Of a stretch of DNA of 64,000 nucleotides, positions 11,181 through 62,229 are shown piece after piece; position 1 is the first letter of the stretch; each line of letters opens with the position of its first letter. Under the pieces are notes generated by a model that saw nothing but the letters and a program-made list of their open reading frames with translations, did not search any database and was not told the DNA's origin. The DNA comes from Cryobacterium sp. PAMC25264 (GTDB lineage: Bacteria > Actinomycetota > Actinomycetes > Actinomycetales > Microbacteriaceae), in the NCBI RefSeq assembly GCF_019443325.1, contig NZ_CP080383.1:1612001-1676000 (forward strand), read 5' to 3'. Position numbers and translations under genes: made by a program.

Positions 11181-12637
11181 TCAGATGGCAAACGAATGAT
11201 CCGTCGGCTTCACCGGGGCGGGCAGTTGAGTCTCGCCTTCGAGAAACCGATCGACGGCTGCCGCAGCAGCGCGCCCTTCGGCGATCGCCCATACGATGAG
11301 CGACTGACCTCGGCCTGCATCTCCGGCAACGAAAACACCCTCGTGGCTGGTCTGGTAATCACTATCACGCACGACATTACTCCGGTCGTCGAGCGGTAAG
11401 TGCAGCTCATGGGTCAATTCGGTGCTGTCGGGGCCGGTGAAGCCCAACGCCAGCAACACCAAGTCCGCCGGAATCTCGCGCTCTGTGCCGGCTTTGGGAA
11501 CCCGGCGGCCATCGAGATATTCGGTCTCGGCAACCCGGATCGCCCGCACTTCGCCGGCCTCGTTGGCCAGGAATTCGATCGTGGAGGCGAGGTACTGGCG
11601 GGTGCCACCCTCTTCGTGGGCACTGGAGACCTCGAACAGGGTGGGCGACAGCGGCCACGGCTGGTGATCCGGGCGGCTGTCACCGGGCTGCTTGCCGATG
11701 GCCAGGTTGGTCACGGATGCCGCCAGCTGGCGATGCGCGGTGCCGATGCAGTCCGCACCGGTGTCGCCGCCGCCGAGGACGACGACGTGCTTGCCCTCCG
11801 CGGTGATCTGGTTGTCGACGGTGTCGCCGGCGCCCACCTTGTTCTGCTGCACGAGGTATTCCATCGCGAAGTGGACACCGGGCAGGTCGCGCCCGGGATC
11901 GGTAGGTCGCGGGGCACCATGGCACCGGTGGCGACGACCACGGCGTCATAGCGAGCGCGCAGGTCGGCCCAGGTGATGTCCACGCCGATGTTCACTCCGG
12001 CGCGGAACCGGGTGCCCTCAGCGGTCATCTGTGCGAGCCGCCCGTCGAGGTGCTTCTTCTCCATCTTGAAGTCGGGGATACCGTAGCGAAGTAGGCCGCC
12101 GATGCGGTCGTCACGCTCGAACACGGCCACGGTGTGACCGGCCCGGGTGAGCTGCTGTGCGGCGGCGAGACCGGCCGGGCCGGAGCCGACGACGGCGATG
12201 GTCTTGCCGGTCAGGCGCCCGGGGGGCTGCGGGACGACCCAGCCCTCCGCGAAGGCCTGGTCGATGATCGACACCTCGACCTGCTTGATCGTGACCGCGG
12301 GCTGGTTGATGCCCAGCACGCAGGCCGATTCGCAGGGCGCGGGGCAGAGACGGCCGGTGAACTCGGGGAAGTTGTTCGTGGCGTGCAGACGTTCGATGGC
12401 CTGCCGGCCCTCGTCGCGCCAGGTGAGGTCGTTCCATTCGGGGATCAGGTTGCCCAGTGGGCAGCCCTGGTGGCAGAACGGCACACCGCAGTCCATGCAG
12501 CGGCCGGCCTGACGCTTGAGCACGGCCGAGTCGCCGGCCTCATAGACCTCTTTCCAGTCCATCAAGCGGATGGATACCGGACGACGGGCGGGAAGTTCCC
12601 GATCCGTGGTCTTCAGGAATCCCTTCGGGTCAGCCAT
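11181..12637 (-). CDS. gltD: glutamate synthase small subunit, frameshifted in this sequence
   Basis: GltD supplies electrons from NADPH through FAD and Fe-S centres to GltB for ammonia assimilation. The N-terminal part carries the Fe-S cysteines ([16 protein letters not shown] and [10 protein letters not shown]) and the first FAD site ([13 protein letters not shown]). The reading frame breaks near 11891 after VPRDLPIPG and resumes in another frame at [11 protein letters not shown], with the NADPH site [12 protein letters not shown] and the C-terminal [18 protein letters not shown]. Adding one base at a G/C run restores a 485-residue protein of normal length. The first frame alone would end at 11711. 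ATG at 12637 overlaps the gltB end by eight bases. A sequencing error is likelier than a real mutation. Confidence 0.9.
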
Positions 12638-15600
12638 TGGTTACCTCCAAGATACGGTTCCAGACCACGTCGCCGTCGGGGTCGAGACCCTCGGCGACAG
12701 CGCTCTGCCTGGTCGCCAGGACGGCCGCGTAGTCCCGCGGCAGTACCTTGACGAAGTTCTTCAGTGTGGTGGCGCGGTCGGCCAGGAGCCGTGCGGCCAG
12801 ATCGGAGTCGGTCTGCGCGAGGTGCTGTTCGAGCAGGTCGGTGACGATCTCGATGTCGGCGCTGCCGAGGGGCAGCAGGGACAGTTCACCGGATTCGAGC
12901 GAGTCGCGGTTGACCTGTTCGGTGCGCAGGCCGTACACGTACGCGGTTCCGCCGGACATACCGGCACCGAGGTTCCGGCCGGTGCTGCCCAGGATCACGG
13001 CGAGTCCACCGGTCATATACTCCAGGGCGTGGTCGCCCACGCCCTCCACGACGGCGGTCGCGCCGGAGTTGCGCACCAGGAATCGTTCACCGACGATGCC
13101 GCGGATGAACATGCTGCCCAGGGTGGCGCCGTAGCCGATGACGTTGCCGGCGATCACGTTGTCCTCGGCGGCGAAGACGCTGCCGCGGTCGGGGCGCACG
13201 ATGATCTCTCCGCCGGAGAGACCCTTGCCGACGTAGTCGTTCGAGTCTCCCTCGAGGCGCAGTGTGATCCCGCTGGGCAGGAAGGCCCCGAAGGACTGTC
13301 CGGCCGAACCGGTCAGCGTCACGTCGATCGAGCCGGCGGGCAGGCCGTTCTCGCCGTGCCGGAGGGTGACCTCGTGACCGAGCATGGTGCCGACGGCGCG
13401 TTCGGTGTTGCGGATCGGCAGGGCGATCTTCACAGTTCCGCCGTGCTCCCGGCCGTGTTCGAGCACGCTGGCGCTCTGGCGGATGAGTTCGACGTCGAAG
13501 TGCTTGTCGAGCTCGTGTTCCTGGGCGCGGCCGGACTGACGGGGCTCGCCGGCGGAGAAGTCCGGACCCACGAGGATCGGGGCCAGGTTGAGACCGGACG
13601 CCTTCCAGTGGTTCAGGGCACCGTTGACGTTCAGCAGTTCCTTGCGCCCGGTGGCCTCCTCAAGGCTGCGGAAGCCGAGCTCGGCCAGGTACTCGCGTAC
13701 CTCCTGGGCGATGAACTCGAAGAAGTTCACCACATAGTCCGCCTTGCCGCTGAAGCGCTTGCGCAGCTCGGGGTTCTGGGTGGCGACGCCGACCGGGCAG
13801 GTGTCCAGGTGGCAGACCCGCATCATGATGCAGCCTTCCACGATGAGCGGTGCGGTGGCGAAACCGAACTCCTCGGCTCCGAGCAAGGCACCGATGACGA
13901 CGTCCCGGCCGGTCTTGAGCTGGCCGTCGACCTGCAGCACGACGCGGTCGCGCATGCCGTTGAGCATCAGGGTCTGCTGGGTTTCGGCAAGGCCGAGTTC
14001 CCAGGGCGTGCCCGCGTGCTTGAGCGAGTTGAGCGGGCTCGCGCCGGTGCCGCCGTCGTGCCCGGAGACCAGGATCACGTCGGAGAGCGCCTTGGCGACG
14101 CCGGCCGCGACGGCACCGATACCGGACTGGCTGACCAGTTTGGTGTGGATGCGCGCGGTCGGGTTGGCCCGTTTGAGGTCGAAGATGAGCTGTTTGAGGT
14201 CTTCGATCGAGTAGATGTCGTGGTGCGGGGGCGGCGAGATCAGACCGACGCCGGCGGTGGCGTGACGAGTGCGGGCCACCCACGGGTAAACCTTGGTGGG
14301 CGGCAGCTGGCCGCCCTCCCCCGGCTTGGCGCCCTGGGCGAGCTTGATCTGGATGTCGTCGGCATGCGTGAGGTACATGCTCGTCACGCCGAATCGGCCG
14401 GAGGCCACCTGCTTGACGGCGCTGCGACGCTCGGGGTCGAGCAGTCGGTCGAGGTCCTCGCCGCCTTCACCGGTGTTGGACTTGCCGCCCAGCCGGTTCA
14501 TGGCGATGGCCAAGGTCTCGTGCGCCTCCTGCGAGATGGAGCCGTAGCTCATCGCGCCGGTGGAGAATTTCTTCACGATCGACGCCACGGACTCGACCTC
14601 GTCGATGGGAACGGCCTTGCGCTGGCCCACGTTGAAGGTGAACATGCCGCGCAGCGTCATCAGGCTCTCGGCCTGATCGTCGACGAGTTTGGTGTACTCC
14701 TTGAAGATGTCGTAGCGGCGGGTGCGCGTCGAGTGCTGCAACCGGAAGATGGTCTCCGGGTTGAACAGGTGCGGCGAACCGTCGCGGCGCCACTGGTACT
14801 CGCCACCGGTCGCGAGGCGCTCGTGCACCGTGACGGCCGCATCCTGCGGGTAGGCACCCACGTGTCGTTCGAGGTTCTCCGCGGCGATCACGTCGATGCC
14901 CACACCGCCGAGCTTGCTCGTGGTGCCGGTGAAGTACTGGTCGATGAACTCCTGGCTGAGTCCGACGGCTTCGAAGGTCTGAGCGCCGGCGTACGACGAC
15001 ACCGTGGAGATGCCCATCTTGGACATGATCTTGAGCACGCCCTTGCCGAGCGCCTTGATGACGTTCTTGACGGCCTTCTCGGGCGTGACGGTGGTGATGA
15101 AGCCGCTGCGAACGAGATCCTCGCAGGTCTCCATCGCCAGGTACGGGTTGACGGCGCTGGCGCCGTACCCGATCAGCAGGGCGACGTGGTGCACCTCGCG
15201 CACATCGCCGGCTTCGACGACGATGCCCACCTTGAGGCGGTTCTCGGTGCGGATGAGGTGGTGGTGCACGGCCGCGATCATCAGCAGCGACGGGATCGGG
15301 GCCAGGTCCTTCGTGCTGTCCCGGTCGGACAGCACGATGAAGAGCGCGCCGGCCTCGATGGCCGCGTCGACCTCGTGGCACATCTCCTCGATGCGGGTGG
15401 AGAGCGCGCAGGGGCCGTCGTCGAAGCGGTAGAGACCACGGATCGTGGTGGTCGTGCGGCTTCCCGGTGAGGTGTCGATGTGCTGGATCTTGGCCAGCTC
15501 GTCGTTGTCGATCACAGGGAAGTCGAGCACGACTTGGCGGGCGTGCTCCGGACCGGCTGAGAGCAGGTTGAGCTCAGGGCCCAGGCCGAGCTTCAGGCTC

Positions 15601-17218
15601 GTGACGACCTCTTCGCGGATCGAGTCCAGGGGCGGGTTGGTGACCTGGCGAACTGCTGGGTGAAGTAGTCGAAGAGCAGCCGCGGGCGCTCACTGAGCAC
15701 GGCTATGGGCGTGTCGCTGCCCATGGCACCGAGCGGCTCAGCGCCGGTACGTGCCATCGGCGCGAGCAGGATGCGAACCTCTTCTTCGGTGTACCCGAAG
15801 GTACGCTGGCGGCGCACGACGGATGCCGGCGGGTGCACGATGTGCTCCCGGTCGGGCAGGTCCTTGAGGTTGATCCGCCCGGCATCCAGCCAGGAGCCCC
15901 ACGGCTCGCTCGCGGCGAGCTCGCCCTTGATCTCCTCGTCCTCGATGAGGCGACCAGCCTCGGTGTCGACGAGGAACATCTTTCCGGGCTGCAGCCGGCC
16001 CTTCCGCACCACGCGCGCGGGGTCGACGTCGATGACGCCGATTTCGCTCGCGAGCACGACGAGGCCGTCGTCGGTGATGACGTACCGGCCCGGGCGCAGT
16101 CCATTGCGGTCCAGGGTGGCGCCGACGAGCGTGCCGTCGGTGAAGACGATGGCGGCCGGGCCGTCCCACGGCTCCATGAGCATCGAGTGGTACTCGTAGA
16201 AGGCACGACGGTCACGGTCGAGGTCGGGCTGGTTCTCCCAGGCCTCAGGGACCATCATCATGACGGCGTGCGGCAACGACCGACCGGACAGGCTGAGCAG
16301 CTCGACGACCTCATCGAAGGAGGCCGAGTCGCTGGCACCGGGGGTCACGATCGGGAAGAGCGGGTTGAGATCGCCGAGCAGTTCGGATTCGAGCTGGGAC
16401 TGGCGTGCGCGCATCCAGTTGCGGTTGCCCTGAACCGTGTTGATCTCGCCGTTGTGCGCGATCATGCGGAACGGCTGGGCCAGAGGCCAGGACGGGAACG
16501 TGTTGGTGGAGTACCGGGAGTGCACCAGGGCGAGCTTCGAGGTGAAGCGCTCGTCGGAGAGGTCCGGGTAGAACGGTTCGAGCTGCAGCGTGGTGACCAT
16601 GCCCTTGTAGACGATGGTGCGGCAGGACAGCGACGCGAAGTAGGTCTCGAGTTCCCGTTCGGCGCGCTTCCGCAGCCGCACGGCCTGGCGGTCCAGGTCG
16701 ATCCCGGAGGGCAGCGAGCCGTCTTCGGTGGTGCGGGTGCTGGCTACATAGAGCTGCTGGATGGCGGGCATGGCTGCCCGGGCCAGGTTGCCGACCTCGT
16801 CTGGCCGCACGGGGACCTCGCGCCAGCCGAGGATACTCAGGCTCTCCTGGCGCGCGATGGCCTCGATGGCGCCCTTGACGGCGCTCCGTGCGGTCGGCTC
16901 TGTCGGCAGGAACACGTTCCCGACGGCGTACTGTCCGGCGTCGGGCAGCGCGAACGTCGAGACGGCGCGGAAGAAGTCATCGGGAATCTGGGTGACGATT
17001 CCGGCGCCGTCACCGGTACCGGCGTCGGATCCGACCGCACCACGGTGCTCGAGGTTGCGGAGAGCGTCGAGGGCACGCGTGATGATGTCGTGCCCGGCCG
17101 TACCCCGGAGGGTGGCGACCATGGCGAGACCACAGGCGTCGCGTTCGTCGTGCGGGTTGTAGAGCCCCTGGGCTGGGGGAACACTACTGAACCGCGAGAA
17201 GAGAGGTTGCTGCGTCAT
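12630..17218 (-). CDS. gltB: glutamate synthase large subunit, frameshifted in this sequence
   Basis: GltB converts glutamine and 2-oxoglutarate to two glutamates. The N-terminal class II amidotransferase domain has its nucleophile at Cys29 in [11 protein letters not shown], preceded by a short propeptide. The central and FMN domains follow, with the 3Fe-4S cysteines in [14 protein letters not shown], the GGTGASPL segment, and a C-terminal GXGXG beta-helix domain (about the last 250 residues). The frame breaks near 15647: the first part (from ATG at 17218) reads [10 protein letters not shown] and then nonsense to 15593, while the second frame supplies [15 protein letters not shown] onward from before 15530. 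One extra base restores 1529 residues, the family length. The start has only a weak AGGACGG upstream. Confidence 0.92.
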
Positions 17219-17335
17219 TAGACCGTCCTCACGAAATGACTGGCAGGTGGGGACGCCGTTGGCCCGCTGGAAGAGGAGATACCGGCCGCCCGGTATGTGG
17301 GGCGAAAAACCGTGGACCGGGTGGGATGACCGCGG

Positions 17336-18301
17336 TTAGGGGCGTGAGTCGGTGGTGCTTGTGGCGTCGACCTCGCGTGATTCAACGGGTTCAGCAGCCT
17401 CATTGCCGTGATCCTCGATGTCGGAATCGGATTCACCAGATTCTACCTCAGGGTTCACCGGCTTCCACTCGCGGCCCGGCCGGTAGGGGCTGAGTTCGGC
17501 GCCGGTGTGCCGGCGGCTCTGCACCAGGATGATGACCAGGCCGATCACGATGGCGAACAGCGCGGCCCACACATTGGTGCGGAGGCCGAAGAAGATCTCG
17601 CTGGGGTCGACCCGGATCGACTCGAAGACGCTGCGGCCGACGCCGTACCAGATCAGGTAGACACCGAAGGCGCTCCCCCAACGCAGGCGGAAGCGGCGCT
17701 CGAGGATGAGGATGACGGCGACGCCGACCAGGTTCCAGACGATCTCGTACAGGAAGGTCGGGTGGAACAGAGTGCCGGCGGGCAGGCCGACCGGGAATGC
17801 GGCGTTGGTGGGCTCGATCTCGAGGCCCCAGGGCAGCGTGGTCGGCAGACCGAACAGCTCGTGGTTGAACCAGTTGCCGAGGCGTCCCATGGCCTGGGCG
17901 AGCAGCATGCCCGGAGCCAGGGCGTCGGCGAAGGACCAGAACCGGATGCCTGAGCGACGGCAGCCGATGTAGGCTCCGACCGCTCCACCGAGCAACGCTC
18001 CGAAGATGGCGATGCCGCCCTTCCACACAGCGAAGACGTCCCAGAGGTTCGCGCCGTCGTAGAAGTAGTCATTGGGGTGCGTGAGAACGTGGAAGATGCG
18101 AGCTCCCACGATGCCGAGCGGAACGGCCCAGAGGATGATGTCGAGCACCACGCCCGGCTCGCCACCTCGCTTGGTCAGTCGACGGCTGGTCAACGCGGTG
18201 GCCGCGAAAATGCCGATCAGGATGCAGATCGCATAGGCGTGGATGCGGAGCGGCCCCAGGTCGAAGTAGCTCCACTCGGGGCTCGGAATGCTCAAGGGCA
18301 T
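17336..18301 (-). CDS. lgt: prolipoprotein diacylglyceryl transferase
   Basis: Lgt moves diacylglycerol from phosphatidylglycerol to the lipobox cysteine of prolipoproteins, at the cytoplasmic membrane. The protein (about 321 residues) has seven predicted membrane segments. The signature MGRLGNWFNHELFGLPT with its essential arginine lies near the middle, and the early HAYAICILIG and RIFHVLTH segments are typical. The C-terminal 60 residues are hydrophilic and rich in E, S and D, as in other Actinobacteria. ATG at 18301 is the better family start; a GTG two codons earlier (18307) is possible. Unlike in many Actinobacteria it is separated from trpA by a hairpin and its own promoter candidate, although the trpA-lgt order itself is common. 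Confidence 0.96.
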   Translation of the reverse strand: MPLSIPSPEWSYFDLGPLRIHAYAICILIGIFAATALTSRRLTKRGGEPGVVLDIILWAVPLGIVGARIFHVLTHPNDYFYDGANLWDVFAVWKGGIAIFGALLGGAVGAYIGCRRSGIRFWSFADALAPGMLLAQAMGRLGNWFNHELFGLPTTLPWGLEIEPTNAAFPVGLPAGTLFHPTFLYEIVWNLVGVAVILILERRFRLRWGSAFGVYLIWYGVGRSVFESIRVDPSEIFFGLRTNVWAALFAIVIGLVIILVQSRRHTGAELSPYRPGREWKPVNPEVESGESDSDIEDHGNEAAEPVESREVDATSTTDSRP

Positions 18302-18324
18302 AGACACGACAACAACCTTTCATC

Positions 18325-18380
18325 GTGACCCATCGGTCACTGGGAGCCGGTCGAATGACCGCCTCGGACAATTTACCCTA
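18325..18380 (-). promoter_or_regulatory. candidate lgt promoter and leader hairpin
   Basis: Minus-strand TAGGGT (18375-18380) would start transcription near 18368 and leave a leader of about 65 bases. Within it gtgacc-catc-ggtcac (18325-18340) forms a 6-bp hairpin. Function unknown. Confidence 0.4.
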
Positions 18381-18392
18381 GAACACCGCTGT

Positions 18393-18415
18393 CGATGATC
18401 GTGAGGCGATCATCG
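18393..18415 (-). terminator. hairpin at the end of the his-trp cluster
   Basis: A perfect 9-bp stem (cgatgatcg/cgatcatcg) with a five-base loop lies 32 bases past the trpA stop. No T tract follows, so its strength is uncertain. Confidence 0.6.
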
Positions 18416-23812: not shown

Positions 23813-24171
23813 CGTTCGTCCTCCGGGATCAGGCCGGCCACGTCGATGTCGCGTCCGTCGAAGCACGTGCGGGTGCCGGTGTGGCAGGCGGCGCCGATCT
23901 GCTCGACCTGCACGACGAGAGTGTCGGCGTCGCAGTCGAGGGCGGCGGAGCGCACGAACTGGGCGTGGCCGGAGGTGTCGCCCTTACGCCAGTACTCCTG
24001 GCGGCTGCGCGACCAGAAAGTGACGCGTCCCTCGGTGAGGGTACGGCGGAGGGCCTCGCGGTCCATCCAGCCGAGCATGAGTACCTCGCGGGTGTCCCAC
24101 TGCTGGATGACGGCTGGCAGCAGACCCTCGGCTGAGAAGAGCGCAGATTCCAGAGCGGCGTCGACGTTCAT
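23809..24171 (-). CDS. hisI: phosphoribosyl-AMP cyclohydrolase
   Basis: HisI opens the adenine ring of phosphoribosyl-AMP, the third step of histidine synthesis. The 120-residue length matches the stand-alone enzyme; the pyrophosphohydrolase partner is a separate gene, hisE. The family segment [12 protein letters not shown] and the zinc/magnesium residues in LDCDADTL and [10 protein letters not shown] are present. ATG at 24171 overlaps the hisF stop by four bases, and the stop overlaps trpE, so the cyclohydrolase is coupled on both sides. Confidence 0.96.
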
Positions 24172-24932
24172 CGGCGCACCACCATTCCGGCGGCGGCAAG
24201 CTCTCGCTTGACGTCGCCAATCGTCAGGTCTCCGCTGTGGAAGACGGAGGCGGCCAGTACGGCGTCCGCGCCGGCCGCGATGGCGGGCGGGAAGTGCTCG
24301 ACCAGGCCCGCGCCGCCGGAGGCGATCACGGGCACCGAGCTGAGTTCGCGCATGATCGTGATGAGTTCGAGGTCGAAGCCGGCCTTGGTCCCGTCGGCGT
24401 CGATGCTGTTGACGAGAAGTTCGCCCGCGCCGAGCTCGATGGCCTGGCTGGCCCACGCCAGCGCATCCAGGTCCGTCTCGGTGCGGCCGCCGTGGGTGGT
24501 GACGACGAAGCCGGATTCGGTGCGCCCGCTGCGCTTGACGTCCAGCGAGAGCACGAGCACCTGCGCTCCGTAGCGGTCAGCGATCTCGGAGATCAGCGCC
24601 GGCCGCGCGATCGCGGCGCTGTTGACGCCCACCTTGTCGGCGCCGCTGGCCTGCAGCCGGGACACGTCGTCGACGCTGCGGATGCCGCCGCCCACCGTGA
24701 GCGGGATGAAGACCTGCTCAGCGGTGGCACGCACCACGTCGTAGGTGGTGGACCTGTCATCGACCGTGGCGGTGACGTCGAGGAAGGTGAGTTCGTCTGC
24801 GCCCTGCTCGTAGTAGCGTTTGGCGAGTTCGACGGGGTCGCCGGCATCGCGCAGGTTCTGGAAGTTGACGCCCTTGACCACGCGGCCGTTGGCCACGTCG
24901 AGGCACGGGATCACTCTGACGGCGAGGCTCAT
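24168..24932 (-). CDS. hisF: imidazole glycerol phosphate synthase, cyclase subunit
   Basis: HisF uses ammonia delivered by HisH to form imidazole glycerol phosphate and AICAR. The 254-residue half-barrel pair shows [16 protein letters not shown] at the N-terminus (catalytic Asp12), [16 protein letters not shown], and [13 protein letters not shown] with the second catalytic aspartate, then VIASGGAG. hisH and hisA are not in the window. It begins 33 bases after hisG, without a clear Shine-Dalgarno. Confidence 0.97.
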
Positions 24933-24965
24933 GGGTGCGGTGCGCTTTCTGGTCGACGACCTGGG

Positions 24966-26919: not shown

Positions 26920-28319
26920 CTACGCCTCGGTGCGCTGCAGCAGGGTGATGAACATGGCGTCGGTGCCGTGGCGGTGCGGCCAGAGCTGCACGCTGCCGGG
27001 GTCGCCGGCGAGGTCGAGCGGATGCTCGGACAGGCTCTGCAGCACCGCGGCGGTGTCGAGAGGCTCGATCTTGTCGCCCCACGCCTTCCGCGCGGTGGCC
27101 ACGATGCCGCGGGTCTCGGCGACGTGCGGCGAGCAGGTGACGTAGGCGAGAATGCCGCCGGGCTTGAGGGCGCCGAGGGCCGCGTGCAGCAGGGCCGACT
27201 GCAGGTCGGAGAGTTCGGCGACGTCCTTGGGGAGCTTCCGCCAGCGGGCCTCCGGGCGCCGCCGCAGGGCGCCGAGGCCCGTGCAGGGGGCGTCGAGCAG
27301 GATCCGGTCGAAGACCTCCGGCTGGTCCTCGCCCACCCAAGTGCCGTCCATCTCCCAGACAGGGACGTCGGCGGGGACGGCGGCCAGCGCGGCACGCACG
27401 AGCTGCGCGCGCGCAGGGACGACCTCGTTGGCGACGAGGCTGGCGCCGCCGTTGAGGGCTTCGGCGGCCAGCAGTGCGGCCTTGCCGCCGGGTCCGGCGC
27501 ACAGGTCGAGCCAGCGCTCCCCCGACACGATCGGGCGGGCCCGGCTGAGCGCGAGCGCGGCCAGCTGCGATCCCTCATCCTGCACCCGCAGGCGCCCCTG
27601 GCTCTCCTTCATCAGGTGGTGGGGGTCTCCCCCGGCCAGAACGAAGCCGGTGGGCGAATACAGGTCGGCCTCGCCGAGTTCGTCAGTCGCTCCGGAGAGT
27701 CCGGGCAGGGCCACCATATTCACCCGGGGGCGGCATTGTCGGCGGCCAGCAGCTCCTCGAGTTCCTGCTCACGGCCCTCCTGCTTGAGCGCCTGGCGGAA
27801 GGCACGCACGACCCAGACCGGGTGCGAGTACAACACGGCTAGGGCGTCGTCGCCAGACCCGGCGTCGGCGAGGATGCGCTGGCGCCATTCGTCGGCGCTG
27901 ACCCGGGCGATGGCGCGCAGCACGCCGTTGGTGAAGCCGGTGGCGGAGCGGGAGCCCACCTGACTGGCCAGTTCGACGGACTCGTTGACGGCGGCGTGGG
28001 TGGCCACGCGCGTGGCCAGCAGCTGGTGGGCGCCGAGTCGCAGCACATCGAGGATGGCGGGGTCGATGGCGCTCACGGGCCGGCCGGCGGCTTCGGCGAT
28101 GACCCGGTCGTAGAAACCCTGCATGCGCAGGGTGCCGTAGGTGAGCTCGGTCGCCAGGGCGGCATCCGCCGTGTTGAGGGCGGCGCGCTGGATGCGGGTG
28201 GGTAACAGCAGGTTGGCATAGGCGTCGTCCTCGCGCACGGCGGCGATGACCTCGTACGCGACCCGGCGGGCCGGCTGGACGACGAAGTTGGGCCGGGTGG
28301 TGTCCCGCTGGGCGCTCAT
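26920..28319 (-). CDS. rsmB: 16S rRNA m5C967 methyltransferase RsmB-like, frameshifted in this sequence
   Basis: The protein combines an N-terminal NusB-like RNA-binding domain (about 1-140, with ARRVAYEVIAAV and NGVLRAIAR) and a SAM-dependent rRNA cytosine methyltransferase domain (LDLCAGPGGKAALLA, then DAPCTGLGALRRRPEARW and YVTCSPHVAE, holding both catalytic cysteines). The frame breaks at a five-base G run at 27726-27730: the first part ends with LLAADNAAPG and a stop at 27720, and the second resumes at once with NMVALPGL. One added base gives 466 residues, the family size, with no residues lost. The ATG at 28319 overlaps the fmt stop by four bases. A base-calling error is the simplest explanation. 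Confidence 0.9.
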
Positions 28320-40701: not shown

Positions 40702-41292
40702 CTACACCTCACTTTCTTCGGTGCCGAATGCAGTACTGCCGGGGGTGCCAGTGGCACGCCCGGTGAGAGTGGTGATGGCCTCGCTGATCGCGGTGCGATC
40801 GGCGGGGTCGCTGAAACGGAAGTAGCTGTCGACGCTGACGGGGGCGTCCGGGGCTGCGGTGCCGGCCGGACCGTTCTGGCCGTCCGTACGGTTCAACCGC
40901 CAGCCGAGCAGCAACAGCCCGCCGGGTTCGACGGCGCGGTCGATGGCCCAGGTGGCGTGGGTGACGAGCTCAACGGCATCCGCGGGGATGAAGAGTGCCG
41001 CAGAGCCCGCGAGCTCGAGGAGCACGCCCTGTTCGGTGACGGACACTCCCCCGCGCGCCCGGAAGCCGAGCCCGGGGATGTTGAGGCGCTCAAGCGGCTG
41101 GTCCCTGGGCGTCGTGGCCACGTAGAGGGCCGCGGCCGAGGCGAGCTCGCGGCTGCTGGCAGCCGGCTGCGGGTAGCCGGCGGGCAGGGCGGCATCCCGG
41201 CGGCTGCGGCGGCGCCAGGAGCGCAGCATCAGCAGCAGCACGACGACCAGGACCAGCGCGGTGATGAGCGTCGCGACGGTGCGGCTACTCAT
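40702..41292 (-). CDS. pyr-operon membrane protein with PH-like domain
   Basis: A protein of about 196 residues with one N-terminal membrane segment (TLITALVLVVVLLLMLRSW), a basic RRRSRR stop-transfer stretch, and a soluble C-terminal domain that resembles the PH-like domain of the membrane proteins found between pyrC and carA in Actinobacteria. Its function is unknown. ATG at 41292 is chosen because GGAG precedes it and it overlaps the pyrC end by eight bases; an ATG at 41316 is possible. Location inside the operon suggests a role tied to pyrimidine synthesis, but nothing in the sequence shows one. Confidence 0.8.
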   Translation of the reverse strand: MSSRTVATLITALVLVVVLLLMLRSWRRRSRRDAALPAGYPQPAASSRELASAAALYVATTPRDQPLERLNIPGLGFRARGGVSVTEQGVLLELAGSAALFIPADAVELVTHATWAIDRAVEPGGLLLLGWRLNRTDGQNGPAGTAAPDAPVSVDSYFRFSDPADRTAISEAITTLTGRATGTPGSTAFGTEESEV

Positions 41293-42630
41293 GCGCGCTC
41301 CGTGCCGCGTGGACATCGGCCGGGCTACGGAGCACACCATCCAGGACGGTGGCGTAGCCGTTGTGGAACGTCGCCATCACCTGTCCGGGCAGGGTCATCT
41401 CGAGGTAGGGCGAGTTGATGCCCTTGCCCACGAGGTTCTCGCGGCCGAAGACCCGGCGGGCGTTCGGGTCGTACAGGGTGATCTCGGCGGCAGAGCCGAC
41501 CGTGAGCTGACCGGTGTGACCGGAGATCCGGCCGATGCGCGCCGGCGTGGTGGAGAATACCCGGACCAGATCGGCCCAGTTCAGGTAGCCCGACTCGACC
41601 ACGGAGGCGTGGGCCACGGAGAGGGCGGATTCGAGCCCGACCATCCCGTTGGCGGCGGCATCCCACTCGCAGTCCTTGGACTCGGTGGGGTGCGGTGCGT
41701 GGTCGGTGGCGATGATGTCGATGGTGCCGTCGGCCAGGCCCTGGCGCAGCGCGTCCACGTCTTCCCGACGGCGGAGCGGCGGGTTGACCTTGTACCGGGC
41801 GTCGTAACCGGCGACCAGTTCCTCGGTGAGCAGCAGGTGGTGGGGGGTGACCTCGGCGGTGACGTTGATGCCCGGGCCTTGGCCCAGCGCACCACGTCGA
41901 CGGCCCCGGCGGTGGAGACGTGGCAGACGTGCAACCGGGAGCCGACGTGTTCGGCCAACAGCACGTCGCGGGCGATGATCGATTCCTCGGCCACGGCCGG
42001 CCAGCCGGTGAGTCCGAGCTCGCCGGACAGGGCACCCTCGTTCATCTGGGCGCCGACGGTGAGGCGCGGTTCCTGGGAGTGCTGCGCGACGACGCCGTCG
42101 AAGGCCTTGACGTACTCGAGGGCCCTGCGCATGAGCAGGGGGTCGGAGACGCAGAATCCGTCGTCGGAGAAGACGCGCACCTGGGCGCGGCTGGCCGCCA
42201 TGGCGCCGAGTTCGGCGAGTCGGTCACCTGCCAGACCGACGGTGACGGCTCCGATGGGCTGCACGGTGACGTAGCCGGCCCGCTCGCCGAGCGCGAGGAC
42301 CTGCTCGACGACGCCGGCGGTGTCCTGTACCGGCGAGGTGTTGGCCATGGCGAACACCGTCGTGAAGCCGCCGATGGCCGCGGCCTGGCTTCCGGTGAGC
42401 ACGGTTTCGCTCTGCTCGTAACCGGGTTCACGGAGGTGGGTGTGCAGGTCGACCAGGCCGGGGAGGGCGATCAGGCCGTCGGCGTCGATCACGGTCGCAC
42501 CGGCATCCGAGAGTCCCAGGCCTGTTTCGGTGATGACACCGTCGGCCAGCAGCAGGTCAGTGCTGGTTCCGTCGCTGAGCTGGGCTCCGCGCAGGAGGTA
42601 GCGTTCGCTGGACATTCGTTCGCTCGACAT
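41285..42630 (-). CDS. pyrC: dihydroorotase, frameshifted in this sequence
   Basis: PyrC cyclises carbamoyl aspartate to dihydroorotate. The first frame carries the zinc motif DLHTHLREPGYEQSET, then FAMANTSPVQDT and the LHVCHVSTAGAVDVVRWAKA segment. It then loses frame at the C run at 41871-41873. The rest continues in another frame with DALRQGLADGTIDIIATDHAPH (metal aspartate), and ends with YATVLDG near the C-terminus. One added base yields 448 residues, the family length. ATG at 42630 directly follows the pyrB stop. The first ten residues are a tandem MSSER-MSSER. The break is more likely a sequence error than a mutation, since pyrC sits in an otherwise intact operon. Confidence 0.9.
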
Positions 42631-44254: not shown

Positions 44255-44344
44255 GCATCCCCGCCCCACCCCTCCCGCGAACTGTGACTTAAGCACCCAA
44301 AACTCCCGAATTCTGGGGCTTTTCTCACAGGTCGCGGATGCGTG

Positions 44345-44750
44345 TGGGTGGCACCACCGCCCGCTCCGGACGATGGTGAGAACTCACCGTCGCCCACTCT
44401 GGACGATCAGGTCCGGGCCGATCAGGCCCGCGCGTCCCAGTGCAGCCGCTGGAAAGACCACGAGGTCGCCCGGCGCACCATCCTGAGTGAGACCGCGTGC
44501 CTGACCCGCACCGCCGAACGCACCATCGATCGGCAGTTGGAGCAGGCACGCTACCTGTGCGAAGCCCACCACCGTCTCAAATACCTCTCGACCTGGCAGG
44601 TGCGACACGAGAATGGCGGGGTGCTGGTCTGGCCCTCATCCGGCACACCCAGCTACCGCACCGACCCCGCCAACCCGGTGGGGCCACCCCGGCCCCTGCC
44701 GCCGGTTGTCGGACCCCGGAAACGGAGACGCCCCGTCAAGGACAGCGATC
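44345..44750 (+). pseudogene. remnant of a DUF222/HNH endonuclease gene (3' part)
   Basis: In one plus-strand frame the segment RTIDRQ (about 44515) to YLCEAHHRLKYLSTWQV, then GGVLVWPS and DPANPVGPP, matches the C-terminal HNH region of DUF222-type proteins (typical pattern: cysteines, DHT.D..GG.T...NL..LC..HH.LKH, then W.V...GGVL.W.SP.G). The GGxT-loop residues and the first cysteines are lost or scrambled, there is no DUF222 domain upstream, and no ribosome site precedes the frame. These genes are frequent and repetitive in Microbacteriaceae. It is judged a decayed 3' fragment. The chance open frame runs on to 45262 opposite the DsbA-like gene, but that part has no meaning. Confidence 0.65.
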
Positions 44751-44917
44751 TCACTCCGAGACCCCGGTCAACCCCACAGCCGGCACCGCGCGTGTCGGAC
44801 AACCCACCCTTCCGACCACCGGCCGCACGACGAGCCACGAGGTCAGGACAAGCACAACCGACGAGGTGCGGAATTTCCGCGCAGATCTCGTTCGACTGCC
44901 GGGATCCTTCTGGTTGC

Positions 44918-45910
44918 TTAGGACGTGGCGCCGAGAACGAAGTCGGCGAACGCCTGTGGGTCGTCGATGGCTCCCAGGTACTGACGCCCGTCGACGAGGG
45001 CGGTCGGCGTGCCCTGCAGCGAGGGCAGGTCGGACCCGGGGATCGGGCCGTTCAGGGCGTTGTCGGTGTTCTGCTGCGACCAGGCCAGGTAGCGACCGCT
45101 CGTGACGCAATCGCTGATCGAGTCCGCGCCCACGGACAGGGCGATGAGCTCGTCGTCGGTGAGCCCGGTGGTTCCCTCGATGGGCTGGTCGCCGAACAGG
45201 GCGGTGAGATAGTCCAGCGTCGAATCCGGGTTGGTCGCGGCCACGCACGTGAGAGCGGCTGACGCCCGCGACGAGTACTCGCTGCCCGCGGATGCCTGGT
45301 CGAGGAAGGTGAGAGCGTGCAGGCGCAGCGTGATGGCGCCGTTGTCGACGAGGGCGGCGAGGGTGGCTCCGTTCGCGGCGTCGAACTGGCCGCAGTAGGG
45401 GCACATCGGGTCGATGTAGAGGTCCACGACGGTGTCGCCGGTACCCACCAGGAGATAGCCGTCATCGAGGTAGGCGGCGCCGACCTGTCCGGCGACGATG
45501 CTCGACGAGGGGCCGGTGTTGCCGGTGTTGCCGTTGATTCCACCGAGGACCCCGAACAGCGTGCTGAAAAGCGCGGTGAAGGTGAGGGCCAGCACCAGAA
45601 TCAGGGTCGTGATCCCGATTCCGATGTAGCCGAGCACCAGTCCGGCGATCGCCAGGTTGCGGCCCCCCTCGCCCGTGCGCTTCACCTGGGCCAGGGCGAT
45701 GTGCCCGGTGATCACGGCAGCGAGAGAACAGCAGAACCCGGTGACCAGCGAGACGATGGCGAGGGTGTTGGTGCGGGGCGGGATGGCCGGCACGTAGGAG
45801 GCTCCGAGGTATGTCACCGGTTGATTGCCGCCGCCGGTGTACCCGGCTTGGGCGTCTGCCTGGGCAGCGCGTTCAGCGCCAGTCTGTTGCGGATCAGTGT
45901 GCTCGGTCAT
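44918..45910 (-). CDS. DUF4190 and DsbA-like thioredoxin fusion, membrane-anchored
   Basis: A 330-residue protein. Residues 1-40 are Q/A/G/T-rich and cytoplasmic. A DUF4190 unit with two membrane segments follows (NTLAIVSLVTGFCCSLAAVITGHIALAQVKR..., about 45-120), then a short linker. The C-terminal domain (about 155-330) is a DsbA-type thioredoxin fold with the redox motif MCPYCGQF and a cis-proline-type LQGTPTALVDG. It should sit outside the membrane as a thiol-disulfide enzyme. ATG at 45910 is chosen for GGGGAG just upstream. A DsbB/VKOR partner is not in the window. The gene stands between the pyr and nusB groups, on its own. Confidence 0.88.
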   Translation of the reverse strand: MTEHTDPQQTGAERAAQADAQAGYTGGGNQPVTYLGASYVPAIPPRTNTLAIVSLVTGFCCSLAAVITGHIALAQVKRTGEGGRNLAIAGLVLGYIGIGITTLILVLALTFTALFSTLFGVLGGINGNTGNTGPSSSIVAGQVGAAYLDDGYLLVGTGDTVVDLYIDPMCPYCGQFDAANGATLAALVDNGAITLRLHALTFLDQASAGSEYSSRASAALTCVAATNPDSTLDYLTALFGDQPIEGTTGLTDDELIALSVGADSISDCVTSGRYLAWSQQNTDNALNGPIPGSDLPSLQGTPTALVDGRQYLGAIDDPQAFADFVLGATS

Positions 45911-45927
45911 GGTCTCCCCTCGTATGT

Positions 45928-48059: not shown

Positions 48060-48161
48060 CAGGGGTCCCTCCGGAGGTGGTGCGTGCTGGGGGTGTGGGC
48101 GGGTGGTGGTGCCGACCGGGATGGTCTTCGGGTGGCCGTCCGGCCGGCACCGGGGTGTGGC

Positions 48162-52079: not shown

Positions 52080-53204
52080 TTAGGACCCGATCTCCTGGTA
52101 CGCGGCGAACAGGAGTGATGCATCGGGCGCTTCGAGAACGGTGGGCTTGCCGATGTCGTCGAGCACGATGAAACGCAGCATGCCGCTGCGGGTCTTCTTA
52201 TCGCGCTGCATGGTGGCCAGCAGCGTGGGCCAGCGGCCAACCGGGTAGCTGATCGGCAACGTGAGCGATTCCAGGATGCGGCGGTGCCGGTCGACGGCCT
52301 CGTCCGAGAGCCGTCCGCTGAGACGGGCGAGTTCGGCGGCGAACATCATTCCCACGGCCACGGCGGCCCCGTGACGCCAGCCGTAGCGTTCGGCGTGCTC
52401 GACGGCGTGGCCGAGCGTGTGCCCGTAGTTGAGGATCTCGCGCAGGCCCGCCTCCTTGAAGTCGGCGCCCACCACGCGAGCCTTCATGGCGATCGCCAGT
52501 TCGAGCACCCGGCGGAACTGCTCGGTGGTGGGGTCGGTCACCAAGGCGACGTCGGCTTCGACGATGTCGAGGATCTCGGGGACCTGGATGAAGCCCGCCT
52601 TCACGATCTCGGCAAACCCTGCCAGGATCTCGTTGCGGGGCAGGTCGGCCAGGATGTCCAGGTCGCAGACCACGGCCGCCGGGGCGTAGAAGGTGCCGAC
52701 AAGGTTCTTGCCTTCGGCGGTGTTGATGCCGTTCTTGCCGCCGACGGCCGCGTCGACCATCCCGAGCACGCTGGTGGGAATCTGCACGAGCTTCACGCCG
52801 CGCAGCCAGGTGGCGGCGACGAACCCGGCCAGGTCGGTCACCGCGCCGCCGCCGAAGCCGATCACGGCATCCGTGCGGGTGAAGTCGGCCTGCCCCATCA
52901 CCTGCCAGCAGAACGCGGCCACCTCCACGCGTTTGGCGGGCTCGGCGTCGGGCACCTCGGCGATGAGGACCTCGTAGCGGTCGAGCAGGCTCTCACGCAG
53001 CGCCACCGCGCGGGCGCCCAGGTGCGAGGTGTGCACGATGAGCACCTTCTTGACAGTGTCACCCAGCTGCTCGGCAACGTCGGCAACGATGCCGCGCCCG
53101 ATGTAGACGGGGTAGCTGTCCACCCCGCTCACGGTGATGGTCGTTGTGGACTCGGTGTCGGTGCCGGATTCAGCGGAGGGGTCTTCGGGATGCAGGTCAG
53201 TCAT
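52080..53204 (-). CDS. aroB: 3-dehydroquinate synthase
   Basis: AroB cyclises DAHP to 3-dehydroquinate. The 374-residue protein has the NAD-binding FGGGAVTDLAGFVAATWLRGV and the metal and substrate segments GGKNGINTAEGKNLVGTFYAP and LNYGHTLGHAVEH. The first 25 residues are E/S/T-rich. Its ATG overlaps aroK by eight bases. It closes the aroE-aroC-aroK-aroB row. Confidence 0.97.
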   Translation of the reverse strand: MTDLHPEDPSAESGTDTESTTTITVSGVDSYPVYIGRGIVADVAEQLGDTVKKVLIVHTSHLGARAVALRESLLDRYEVLIAEVPDAEPAKRVEVAAFCWQVMGQADFTRTDAVIGFGGGAVTDLAGFVAATWLRGVKLVQIPTSVLGMVDAAVGGKNGINTAEGKNLVGTFYAPAAVVCDLDILADLPRNEILAGFAEIVKAGFIQVPEILDIVEADVALVTDPTTEQFRRVLELAIAMKARVVGADFKEAGLREILNYGHTLGHAVEHAERYGWRHGAAVAVGMMFAAELARLSGRLSDEAVDRHRRILESLTLPISYPVGRWPTLLATMQRDKKTRSGMLRFIVLDDIGKPTVLEAPDASLLFAAYQEIGS

Positions 53205-53882
53205 GGTGTCGTCGTACCCATTTCACGATGTCGTCGGCGATGGCATCGACCGGTCTGGTCGACGTGTCGAAGTGGATGCTGGCCAGCGCGTCGTAGAGCG
53301 GGCGTCGCTCATCATAGATGCGTTGCCACGCGTCGGGACCGGCAGCCAGCAGCGGCCGTTTGGCGTTTCTGGTGCGCGAGCGCACGGCCTCGGCGGTGGT
53401 ACTCAGCGATACCACGGTGGTGCCGCGGAGGCGTTCCCGGGTGGCGGGGTCGAGCACGGCTCCCCCGCCGAGCGACACCACGGCCCGCCCGCGCCCGAGG
53501 GCGTCGGCCACCGCGTCGCGCTCGAGGTCCCGGAAGTGCGGCTCGCCGAGCCTGGCGAAGATCTCGGTGATCGGCCCGTGCGCGGCAACGATGGTCTTGT
53601 CGGTGTCGATGAACGGAACCCGGAGTAGGCGGGCGACCCGGCGACCGATCTTGGACTTGCCCGACGCCATGGGCCCGATGAACACGAGCGGGAAGAGGGG
53701 GCGTCCGCATCCCGCTCAGGCTCCTGCACGACAGAGGCGGCGCCGCGCTGGGCACCGTCCTCGGATGAACTGCCGGCCGGCAGCCTGGTCTGGCTCGGCT
53801 GAGGCACCTCTGCCGGCTCTTTCGGAACCCTGGCCGGCCAGCCCTCCGGCGGCCGGGAGGCCTCCGGGCTCAGGAACAGCAC
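53197..53882 (-). CDS. aroK: shikimate kinase, probably frameshifted near its N-terminus
   Basis: AroK phosphorylates shikimate. The kinase part (from GTG at 53685, 162 residues) has the P-loop GPMASGKSKIGRR, the FIDTDK aspartate, and VVSLGGGAVLDPATRERL. That start has no ribosome site and cuts the first strand short. One extra G/C at the run 53697-53701 would join this frame to another that runs back to a GTG at 53882, one base after the aroC stop, adding a 66-residue P/E/S-rich leader ending ADAPLFPLVFIGPM. The short form (53197-53685) is the safe call; the joined form is inferred. A 200-base gap inside this otherwise tight operon favours the joined form. Confidence 0.8.
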
Positions 53883-53883
53883 G

Positions 53884-55092: not shown

Positions 55093-55097
55093 GGGTA

Positions 55098-56045: not shown

Positions 56046-57549
56046 CCATCCAGGCCAGCCACTTGGCGACGCCCGCGTCGTGCTCTTCCACCGTGGTCGA
56101 GAAGATGGTCTCGCCGGTGTCCAGGTTCCAGGTCACGAAGAATAGCCAGGTTCCGTCCGCGGGGCGTAGGGCCGCGTCGATGGCGAGGTCGCCCGGATTG
56201 CTGATCGGCCCGACCGGCAGTCCCGGGTGCACGTAGGTGTTGTACGCGTTGTTGGCGTCGCCGCGTTCGGCATCCGTCGTGGTGACCAGATGGGTGTTGC
56301 CGGTGCCGTAGGCCACGGTGGCGTCGGACTGCAACAGCCCGCTCTCCCACTGGGCAGGGTCGAGCCGGTTGTAGAACACCCGGGACACCTTGTAATAGTC
56401 GTCCTTCAGTCCAGCCTCACGCTGGATCAGCGATGCCATCACAATGGTCTTCCACCGGTCGCCCGGCGCGACACCCGCCGCATCGAGGGCCTGGAACTGG
56501 CGGTCAACCAGAGTCTTGATCGCATCGTGCGCAGTGGTTCCCGGCTGGAACGTGTAGGTCGCGGGAAACAGGAACCCCTCCAGGCTGGTGGCCTCGGCGG
56601 GGAGACCGAACCCGGACAGGTCGGCTGCGGCCGCCTGCAGATCGGCCAGGGGGATGTCGGTGCCCTCGGAGATCGAGGTGAGCACATCCACCGCCGCGGT
56701 GCCTTCGGGGATCGCCACGGTGAGCTCCTGCCGGGTAGCCGGGTCCTGCAGAGCCGTAAGTGCGGCCTGGGAGCTCATCTGGGAGGCCAGCAGGTAGGCG
56801 CCGGGCTGGAACACCGGGTCGGTCGCTTGGGCGAGGAGGAGGCTGTAGAACGCGTCGTAGCTCTTGACGACGTCCTGGTCCACCAGGGTGTTGGCGATAT
56901 CGGAGCCGGTCTCGCCGTCGTGGATCATGACGAGCACCTCACCGGAGCCCGAACCCTCGTAGTCTTCGGGGCCCTGAGTCGCCGCGATCAGCTGGCTGAT
57001 AGGCCCCTGCAGGGCGAAGGCCGCAGCGCCCATCAGCGCGAGGAGCACGACGAGGACGATCAGGCAGCCCCAGGCTCCCTTACGTCTGGGCTTCTTCTCG
57101 GCGGGCAGGCCGGAGAGCTGGGCCCGGCGATTCGCACGGCTCTCGCGGCCGGTTCGCCCGGCGGCCGAGTCTGCGGGACGAGCCGTGCTCGGCCCCGCCG
57201 CGGCAGTGCCGGATGCAGAGGCGTCGGATACGTCGGCAGCGCTGGCCGGGACGCCGAAGCCGAGACCGGCGAACGGGTTGTTCTCTGCCGCCCACGCGGC
57301 GGACGAGGTGTCGGCGGGCGCTGTGTCGGCAGGCGCTGTATCGGCGGGCAGCGGCGCTTGGACCGGCGCCTGCGCGCCGGCAGCTGGAACAGCACCCGTG
57401 CCGTCGAACGGGCCGGACTGGGCGTCGTGGACTGCCTGCGCGTCCCGGGCCGCCTGCGCCTCACGCAGTGCGCGCCTGCTGGTCGGCGGGCGGTCGCCCT
57501 GGGCGCCCGACAAATTGCTGTCGGGTGATTCCGGCGGACTAACTGCCAC
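56023..57549 (-). CDS. mltG: endolytic murein transglycosylase MltG
   Basis: MltG cleaves nascent peptidoglycan strands at the membrane. The 508-residue protein has a long A/P/Q-rich cytoplasmic region (1-165), one membrane segment (GCLIVLVVLLALMGAAAF, about 165-185), then the extracytoplasmic YceG domain with LEGFLFPATYTFQPG, the catalytic glutamate in MASLIQREAGL, YNRLDP, and the PGLPVGPISNPG loop near the end. The start is GTG at 57549, two bases after ruvX. The cytoplasmic extension is longer than in E. coli but usual in Actinobacteria. Confidence 0.95.
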   Translation of the reverse strand: MAVSPPESPDSNLSGAQGDRPPTSRRALREAQAARDAQAVHDAQSGPFDGTGAVPAAGAQAPVQAPLPADTAPADTAPADTSSAAWAAENNPFAGLGFGVPASAADVSDASASGTAAAGPSTARPADSAAGRTGRESRANRRAQLSGLPAEKKPRRKGAWGCLIVLVVLLALMGAAAFALQGPISQLIAATQGPEDYEGSGSGEVLVMIHDGETGSDIANTLVDQDVVKSYDAFYSLLLAQATDPVFQPGAYLLASQMSSQAALTALQDPATRQELTVAIPEGTAAVDVLTSISEGTDIPLADLQAAAADLSGFGLPAEATSLEGFLFPATYTFQPGTTAHDAIKTLVDRQFQALDAAGVAPGDRWKTIVMASLIQREAGLKDDYYKVSRVFYNRLDPAQWESGLLQSDATVAYGTGNTHLVTTTDAERGDANNAYNTYVHPGLPVGPISNPGDLAIDAALRPADGTWLFFVTWNLDTGETIFSTTVEEHDAGVAKWLAWMDEHPEYG

Positions 57550-57551
57550 GA

Positions 57552-58028
57552 TTACGGCCTTCCGGTGGTGTCGACAGGCGCGCCGGCTGGTTTGCCCGAG
57601 GCCCGTTCCGTATCAAGAGCGTGCTGCAAGATGATAGTCGCGGCGACCTGATCGACCACTGGACGCTGGGTGCGGGTGCTGCGGCCGCTCGTGCGGAGCG
57701 CGGCCTGGGCGGACACCGTGGACAGCCGCTCGTCGACCAGGCGCACGGGAACCGTCAACTCACCGGCCAGCGCAGCGGCGAAGGCCACGGCGTCCTCGGT
57801 GGAGGCGGTGTGACGCCCGGACAGCGCCAGCGGCAGCCCCACGATGACTTCGACGGCATCCAGCTCGGCCACAATCGCGGTGAGGCGAGCGAGATCGCCC
57901 GGTGCCGCTGCGCCACGTTGCCGCGGCACGGTCTCGACGGGGGTGGCGAGCATGCCGTGGAAGTCGCTGCGGGCAACGCCGATCCGCACGGTTCCGACAT
58001 CGACTCCCACCCGCACACCCGTTCGCAT
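57552..58028 (-). CDS. ruvX: RuvX/YqgF Holliday-junction resolvase-like protein
   Basis: A 158-residue RNase H-fold protein of the YqgF family, proposed to resolve Holliday junctions or process 16S rRNA ends. It shows GVDVGTVRIGVARSD (first catalytic aspartate), VGLPLALSGRHT, and LVDERLSTVSAQ followed by VDQVAATIILQHALD with the last acidic residue. ATG at 58028 lies three bases after the alaS stop. The alaS-ruvX-mltG-aroE order is a standard actinobacterial arrangement. Confidence 0.95.
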   Translation of the reverse strand: MRTGVRVGVDVGTVRIGVARSDFHGMLATPVETVPRQRGAAAPGDLARLTAIVAELDAVEVIVGLPLALSGRHTASTEDAVAFAAALAGELTVPVRLVDERLSTVSAQAALRTSGRSTRTQRPVVDQVAATIILQHALDTERASGKPAGAPVDTTGRP

Positions 58029-58031
58029 GGC

Positions 58032-60686: not shown

Positions 60687-60802
60687 GGGGTCCGTACTGT
60701 TGCTGGGAACGGACGAAGTCCGATCGGGGATGCGGTGGGGGGAATATCAGTGGGGAGGCGACGCGGTGGAACGTGACTCCGTCGGAGTGGGCGGCGCCAG
60801 GT

Positions 60803-61024
60803 TCAGGGCTTGGAGAGCTCTTCGATGGTGTCTTCAGCGTCGCCGAGGGCGGCGTGGAGCTCGGCTTCGCGCTTGCGGTAGCCCTCCGAGATGGCCTCGC
60901 CGAACTCACGGGTCTTCGCGTCCAGATCGGTGAAGAAGCGCTTACCCTGCTGGGTCTTGTTGACTTCGTGGGCGACGACGAAGCCGACGCCGACGCCGAC
61001 GACCAACCAGATGAAGTTCTTCAT
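60803..61024 (-). CDS. small membrane-anchored protein of unknown function
   Basis: A 73-residue protein with an N-terminal hydrophobic segment (FIWLVVGVGVGFVVAHEV, about 4-21) followed by a charged helical tail (LDAKTREFGEAISEGYRKREAELHAAL...). The look is that of YtxH-like or DUF948-associated small proteins, but no family is certain. GGAGC precedes the ATG by nine bases. It lies between DUF948 and alaS in the same direction and is probably cotranscribed. Confidence 0.75.
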   Translation of the reverse strand: MKNFIWLVVGVGVGFVVAHEVNKTQQGKRFFTDLDAKTREFGEAISEGYRKREAELHAALGDAEDTIEELSKP

Positions 61025-61129
61025 GGCATGTGCTCCCTGAATTCGGTGAAGCTGGTGTGTGTTGAGAAACTGTGTGCGCGCGGAAACCGGTGCGCGGACA
61101 GCGGACAGTCTGGTTCCCAGCGTAGTGGA

Positions 61130-61495
61130 CTACTTCCGGGTGCGCCGGGGACGGGCTGCGCGAAAGGCCGCTGTCACACCCGCCGAGAAACCGGCGATCT
61201 TGATCAGCGGACCGCCCACAGTGGCGGCCACGAGGGCGACGAGGGCGGACACATTGCCCGTCACTTCGGCCACGTTGGTGGTGATGGTGTCGATCGTGGC
61301 CAACTGGTGGTTGGTCTGCGCGACCGTGCCCGTGGTCTCCTCGAGCAGCGGGGTGATGTTCTGGCTGAGATCGCGGATCGCGTGGGTGGTCTCGTCGAAC
61401 ACCCTGCCCAGCTTGATCAGCGGGATGGCGAGGAACGCCACCAGGACCGCGAATACGCCGGCGGCAATCAGCCCGGCAATATCTCCACCAGTCAT
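61130..61495 (-). CDS. DUF948 domain-containing protein
   Basis: A 121-residue protein with an N-terminal membrane segment (IAGLIAAGVFAVLVAFLAIPLIKLG) followed by an amphipathic helix typical of DUF948 (LGRVFDETTHAIRDLSQNITPLLEET) and a basic end ARPRRTRK. Function unknown; related proteins in Bacillus and Actinobacteria are small envelope proteins. GGAAG six bases before the ATG at 61495 fixes the start, although the frame is open to 61540. It lies between rpsD and the 73-residue gene. DUF948 next to alaS is common in Actinobacteria. Confidence 0.87.
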   Translation of the reverse strand: MTGGDIAGLIAAGVFAVLVAFLAIPLIKLGRVFDETTHAIRDLSQNITPLLEETTGTVAQTNHQLATIDTITTNVAEVTGNVSALVALVAATVGGPLIKIAGFSAGVTAAFRAARPRRTRK

Positions 61496-61528
61496 TCGAC
61501 ACTTCCATTCGGTCTCGGGTACGAGAAA

Positions 61529-61556
61529 AGGGCGGATCACCTAGGTGATCCGCCCT
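61529..61556 (-). terminator. intrinsic terminator after rpsD
   Basis: A perfect 28-base palindrome (arms agggcggatcacc/ggtgatccgccct around ta) lies 45 bases past the rpsD stop and is followed on the minus strand by a TTTT run. Confidence 0.88.
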
Positions 61557-61600
61557 CCAGCGTAGTTCAGTTCCGCACGAGAGGATCGCGCGGGAGATGA

Positions 61601-62229
61601 CTAGCGTGCTGCGTAGTACTCCACGACGAGCTGGACTTCACAGGTCACGGGGATCTCGATGCGCTTCGGGGCGCGCACGAGGCGGGCCTGCAGCTTGTCG
61701 AGTTCGACCTCGAGGTACGGCGGGAGCTTGGGCAGCAGGTCGACGTGACCGCCGGCCGCGGCAACCTGGAAGGGCTCGGTGCCCTCGCTGCGTGCCTTGA
61801 CGTGGATGAGCTGACCCGGCTTCACGCGGAAGGAGGGGCGGTCGACCAGCTGGCCGTCGACCAGGATGTGACGGTGCACAACCATCTGACGGGCCTGGGC
61901 GGTGGTGCGGGCGATGGCCGAACGCACGAGGAGGGCGTCGAGACGGGTCTCGAGGATCTCGACCAGGTTCTCACCGGTCAGGCCCTGGCGGCGACGAGCT
62001 TCCTCGAAGGCGATCTTGAGCTGGGCTTCGCGGATGCCGTACTGGGCGCGTAAGCGCTGCTTTTCGCGGAGACGCACGGCGTAGTCCGAGTCGGTCTTGC
62101 GCTTGGTGCGGCCGTGCTCGCCCGGAGCGTACGGGCGCTTCTCGAGGTACTTGGCGGCCTTCGGGTCAGGGCGATGCCCAGGGCCCGCGAGAGGCGGGTC
62201 TTGCTGCGGGTACGTGACTTGGTAGACAC
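61601..62229 (-). CDS. rpsD: 30S ribosomal protein S4, frameshifted in this sequence
   Basis: S4 starts assembly of the 30S subunit by binding 16S rRNA. Almost all of the protein is in one frame: PKAAKYLEKRPYAPGEHGRTKRK, the S4 RNA-binding domain with RLDALLVRSAIARTTAQARQMV and HRHILVDGQLVDRPSFRVKPG, ending QLVVEYYAAR. The first 22 residues, beginning GTG at 62229 (STKSRTRSKTRLSRALGIALT), are in another frame. The frame breaks at the GGG at 62163-62165; GGGG there restores a 209-residue S4, the family length. AAGGA precedes the GTG. An organism without S4 would not be viable, so the missing base is almost surely a sequence error. Confidence 0.94.

Follow-up and report, generated by a model that had tools for sequence, protein, structure and literature searches.

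In the 64,000-nucleotide stretch of Cryobacterium sp. PAMC25264 analysed here (positions 1,612,001-1,676,000 of a single-contig genome of 4.06 Mb; below, the window, with coordinates counted from its first base), six genes, namely gltD, gltB, rsmB, pyrC, aroK and rpsD, each lose their reading frame by one missing base at a short run of G or C, and we are highly confident that these six breaks arose in the assembly, as errors of base calling or consensus in which G/C runs were under-counted by one. By this explanation, short G/C runs would be under-counted by one base, more often when they are longer and whatever the function of the gene, in the window and beyond it, and the living organism would almost certainly have intact genes. 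The six genes are as follows:

11181..12637, minus strand: gltD, glutamate synthase small subunit, in two frames, split at the G run near 11894-11897
12630..17218, minus strand: gltB, glutamate synthase large subunit, split at the G run near 15646-15648
26920..28319, minus strand: rsmB, 16S rRNA cytosine-967 methyltransferase, split at the G run 27726-27730 (start taken from the comparison with the relative G004)
41285..42630, minus strand: pyrC, dihydroorotase, split at the C run 41871-41873
53197..53729, minus strand: aroK, shikimate kinase, shifted at the G run 53697-53701 in the N-terminal tail (probable start 53729, GTG)
61601..62229, minus strand: rpsD, ribosomal protein S4, with the frame lost about 22 codons in, at the G run 62163-62165

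Five relatives were compared at the six sites. The nearest of those fetched is G004, with 94-97% identity to the window by aligned piece, followed by G007 and G002 (both 73-93%), G008 (75-93%) and G005 (67-87%). Of the resulting 30 comparisons, 28 were alignable (aroK could not be aligned in G008 and in G005), and in all 28 the window is one base shorter, with three to five relatives concordant at each site. Against G004 the gaps lie at 11894, 15646, 27725, 41870, 53696 and 62162, each of one base and each in a G or C run. The sequence-only reading had placed six frame breaks at these runs, always by the loss of one base, and had proposed a comparison with close relatives; that comparison bears it out, as the relatives are one base longer at all six sites. 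Its predicted product lengths for five genes are also the lengths of the uninterrupted frames in G004, namely 485 residues for gltD, 1529 for gltB, 466 for rsmB, 448 for pyrC (453 from the first ATG) and 209 for rpsD. The frames of pyrC and rpsD are open in G005 as well.

Profile searches point in the same direction. The two halves of gltD match positions 1-249 and 258-485 of TIGR01317, and the fragments of rsmB cover consecutive portions of its family profile. In the first fragment profile search, pyrC and rpsD gave one matching fragment each; the 109-aa piece of rpsD matches no profile and contains only a short true N-terminal part. In genome searches, G004, G007 and G002 have pyrC and rsmB each as a single piece, whereas the PAMC25264 genome has each of these genes in two. 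For gltB, all four genomes have the searched domain within a single long frame, which is shorter in PAMC25264 (1,019 aa, against 1,513-1,568 aa). These matches bear directly on the idea that the window has the right run lengths and the relatives a base too many, to which we give practically no probability. Nothing at the six sites favours it, although errors do occur in the relatives too: in G007, gltB shifts frame near residue 39 (L013, about 16978-16981), and the single-contig genome of G007 may carry errors similar to those described here. Three to five relatives would have to be wrong in the same way at each site, while their frames span the profiles and the gltD, rsmB and pyrC pieces in the window match successive parts of one profile, by which this idea is already refuted.

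For aroK, the sequence-only reading was correct in the loss of frame by one base, but its product of about 228 residues is unsupported, and the kinase domain is uninterrupted in a single frame. The open reading frame (ORF) 53197-53685 (162 aa) covers positions 1-158 of the 159 of the SKI profile, and the PAMC25264 protein scores 120.7 bits in the genome search, against 119.5-122.5 in the relatives. The break lies 5' of the kinase domain, before the P-loop and about 11 codons after the start, and an aroK piece without a profile match holds only the short true N-terminal part. With the start codon taken from G004, a product of 177 aa is probable. The peptide around the shift (DAP / LFPL) is the same in G004, near to it in G007 (DAPLYPL) and G002 (DTPLYPL), and weaker in G008 and G005; given this shared peptide, the aroK tail probably encodes protein, and its frame shift is probably also an error.

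It could be supposed that the short runs are real but tolerated, with slippage of the ribosome or of RNA polymerase restoring the frame, which we regard as extremely improbable. There is precedent, since rescue of frame by recoding or slippage is described for some genes in the available parts of two reports (PMC5009743, PMC4256274). However, the runs at the breaks in the window are only 2-5 bases long, and the site is not conserved, as the relatives have one base more and as several of them have interrupted runs at the same place in rsmB, pyrC and aroK; because of these interruptions, the long run in those three genes is peculiar to the window and G004. In addition, 15 breaks in 14 family-matched genes over 199.6 kb (see below) would all require such rescue, and a general frame-restoring activity that reads through hundreds of real one-base G/C-run deletions, rpsD and pgk included, is still less probable.

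Copies of pyrC from elsewhere are also relevant to slippage. Among the best 120 of 8,000 scored candidates in a protein search with pyrC, five are shorter than 400 aa: P0107 and P0119 (both labelled partial at source), P0004 and P0063 (both aligned with the window product), and P0116. P0004 (342 aa, from a public contig of 630 kb) was considered as a case of the same break and rejected, since in the alignment the change of frame comes about 22 residues further on and is a separate event, which also speaks against rescue by slippage. The P0004 tail resembles the out-of-frame tail of the window, perhaps by a similar error in another assembly. An intact dihydroorotase of 453 aa (P0001), encoded on an ENA contig of 1,771 bases that is probably metagenomic, is 99.2% identical to the window over residues 1-253 and 95.5% over residues 254-453.

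Aligned sequence of the PAMC25264 genome came to 199.6 kb in total, with 63.1 kb in the window and 136.5 kb outside it; the latter was taken from seven control stretches of 20 kb each, L119-L125 (140 kb fetched). In the 136.5 kb outside, nine one-base shortfalls were observed within the domains of family-matched genes, so the problem is wider than the window, which was invisible to the sequence-only reading. Their positions in the PAMC25264 genome are as follows:

L119: 11883
L120: 13050 and 19304
L121: 9790, 16476 and 18354
L122: 6079
L123: 6695
L124: 12386

The genes hit are DUF3097, sufC, tkt, pgk, uvrA (which carries two breaks of the same kind), secF, DUF6325 and recN. Such in-domain breaks were observed in six of the seven stretches (L119-L124) and none in L125, and the rate is alike outside and inside the window (9 per 136.5 kb and 6 per 63.1 kb; P 0.58). 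Twelve control events are shorter than G004; of the eight that were alignable to G007, seven show the same one-base deficit against it, and L122 969 is unclear. Three events were not counted, namely L122 969 (at residue 23 of a DUF349 ORF, 5' of the best-matching domain), L122 18293 (at residue 22, 5' of a sigma-factor domain) and L123 16366 (in an ORF without a family match), and changes in L119, L120, L123, L124 and L125 that are compound or lie in repeat regions were likewise left uncounted. Also left out was L123:1374, in a glpX-like ORF (L130:3217-4248 in G004), where the PAMC25264 genome is one G longer than G004; this is possibly an error in G004 instead, and G007 aligns uncleanly there. 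In total, 15 breaks in 14 family-matched genes were counted per 199.6 kb, the aroK tail included, and a rough extrapolation from one window and seven stretches gives about 305 such breaks genome-wide.

The alternative to be weighed most carefully is real decay, with genes lost by replication slippage in G/C runs, e.g., in a mutator or host-dependent strain. The breaks are, after all, present in the deposited sequence, and replication slippage likewise depends on run length. However, rpsD and pgk are among the genes hit, and only one copy of each was found. Profile searches covering rpsD, pgk, pyrC, aroK, gltB and rsmB (gltD being left out) revealed no second intact copy in the genome for rpsD, pgk, pyrC, gltB or rsmB. 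The rpsD gene is the only S4 match above the family cut-off in the genome, and no second strong Glu_synthase match was found there. Weaker pyrC matches in the genome, none above 159 bits where the cut-off is 538, were rejected as other genes, the strongest two having counterparts in the relatives. A cell should not survive without S4 or without phosphoglycerate kinase.

Decay should also leave its mark on the codons beyond the break, and the relaxed constraint expected of a pseudogene there was not found. Counted against G004, synonymous to non-synonymous differences number 20:1 upstream and 18:4 downstream of the break in gltD and, in the same order, 66:2 and 96:3 in gltB, 15:4 and 24:3 in rsmB, 18:3 and 19:1 in pyrC, and 1:0 and 6:0 in rpsD, with 25:2 downstream of the break in the aroK frame. 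Outside the window the corresponding values on the two sides are 3:0 and 12:0 for pgk, 1:0 and 9:0 for sufC, 21:1 and 27:6 for recN, 9:3 and 24:4 for secF, and 76:2 and 9:1 for uvrA at L121 16476. Purifying selection still acts on the codons to either side of the breaks, and synonymous differences dominate after all six of them. In the comparison with G004, and within the limits of the exclusions among coding flags, each window gene carries a single lesion. The flags left uncounted are those at 24938, 53829, 60709, 60739 and 62273-62301, which fall in parts of ORFs upstream of the starts used, and that at 57342, which is part of a compound change within a repeat. A further point against decay is that the genome, at 4.06 Mb, lies within the 2.9-4.7 Mb of the searched members of the genus.

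Run lengths were compared for G/C and A/T runs of at least 3 bases, between the PAMC25264 genome and G004 unless stated otherwise. Of 4,752 G/C runs, 28 are shorter in the PAMC25264 genome and 2 longer (two-sided P of about 9e-7); 27 of the 28 are shortened by one base and one by two. The shortfall rises steeply with run length, from 7/3896 at three bases to 9/684 at four, 9/162 at five and 3/9 at six (0.18%, 1.3%, 5.6% and 33%; trend z 11.3), with 0/1 at seven. None of the 524 A/T runs is changed, whereas the G/C rates would predict 4.8 changed runs (P for zero 0.008), which also speaks against decay; "always G or C" is partly owed to base composition. In the control pair G004/G007, only 1 of 1,562 G/C runs is shorter, and the rate in the PAMC25264 genome is higher (Fisher P 0.004); the A/T runs of that pair number 253, of which 2 are shorter and 1 is longer. 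Between G007 and G002, 3 of 581 G/C runs are shorter and 1 longer, every one a run of three, and the PAMC25264 genome against G007 has 7 shorter and 1 longer of 1,372. We infer that sequencing caused the shortfalls, and consensus from PacBio-type long reads would fit best as the platform, since the effect touches G/C runs and spares A/T runs.

Three observations weigh against base-calling or consensus error as the explanation. The first is that in the N-terminal tail of aroK the non-synonymous differences from G004 are not fewer (synonymous to non-synonymous 1:2, in 11 codons). The second is that, against the more distant G007, A/T runs of the PAMC25264 genome do differ, with 2 shorter and 1 longer of 258, the same counts as for G004/G007. 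The third is that the G/C shortfall is more frequent in non-coding than in coding sequence (11/726 against 17/4022, P 0.002), although the script's coding calls are rough: the site near 24940, just 5' of a gene, was counted as coding, while aroK is absent because its flanks differ. This inequality counts against uniform error, which predicts equal rates, and it is what selection against true frame shifts would give, so that it favours decay; genuine indels that arose between genes as the genomes diverged probably raise the non-coding figure. Nevertheless, the non-coding excess does not rescue gene decay, because essential genes with no second copy are still among those hit. We therefore consider real decay very improbable, and the judgement of the sequence-only reading that under-calling of homopolymers is likelier than decay, which explains almost all that was observed, is supported by the one-way and length-dependent shortfalls, by the essential single-copy genes that are hit, and by the constraint.

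The window contains five further runs that are one base shorter than in G004:

24938..24940, no strand: G run, just 5' of the His_biosynth gene (24168-24932), where the other relatives align uncleanly
45915..45919, no strand: C run, classed by the script as non-coding, with G004 the only alignable relative
48139..48141, no strand: C run, classed by the script as non-coding
61510..61512, no strand: G run, classed by the script as non-coding
62454..62457, no strand: G run, classed by the script as non-coding

Two variable regions were seen in passing. Between conserved pieces, the spot at window positions 44266-44924 varies in length, from about 0.65 kb in PAMC25264 to 3.9 kb in G007, with about 1.3 kb in G004 and 1.8 kb in G002. 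L124:5700-7400 is rich in repeats and shows many differences between the PAMC25264 genome and G004, partly within a long open frame.

For users of this genome a caution follows, as at the sampled rate around 300 genes would look broken though the assembly is listed as 99.99% complete, and auxotrophies and gene losses that do not exist would be predicted by models derived from it. A curve of shortfall against run length, drawn against one close relative, is a fast way to detect such assemblies without reads.

The breaks are an assembly artefact of a known kind and not biology. In the available part of one report, an unpolished nanopore assembly had 664 genes disrupted by indels (PMC8306402). 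In the part available on Kastor, long-read assemblies are described with deletions at homopolymers of 2-8 bases, mostly after 4-5, and with 1,234 annotated pseudogenes (23.3%) in one assembly before correction (PMC12007338). Our case is like these in that homopolymer deletions fragment genes. It is unlike the 59% GC assembly in that source, where G/C errors were about half of the A/T errors, since here no A/T run is changed against G004. As far as the available part of the report goes (PMC4487206), Streptomyces leeuwenhoekii was assembled from PacBio data with a C or G missing from runs of at least 3 bases, which produced frame shifts, and 2,934 bases were inserted into the 7.9 Mb on Illumina evidence. 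The G/C-only pattern found here is closer to that case, which likewise concerns missing C or G in runs of at least 3 bases in a single-contig assembly of a high-GC actinomycete; it differs in that the evidence there came from Illumina contigs and here comes from relatives only, and in that the density is lower here, with 28 shortened runs in 199.6 kb.

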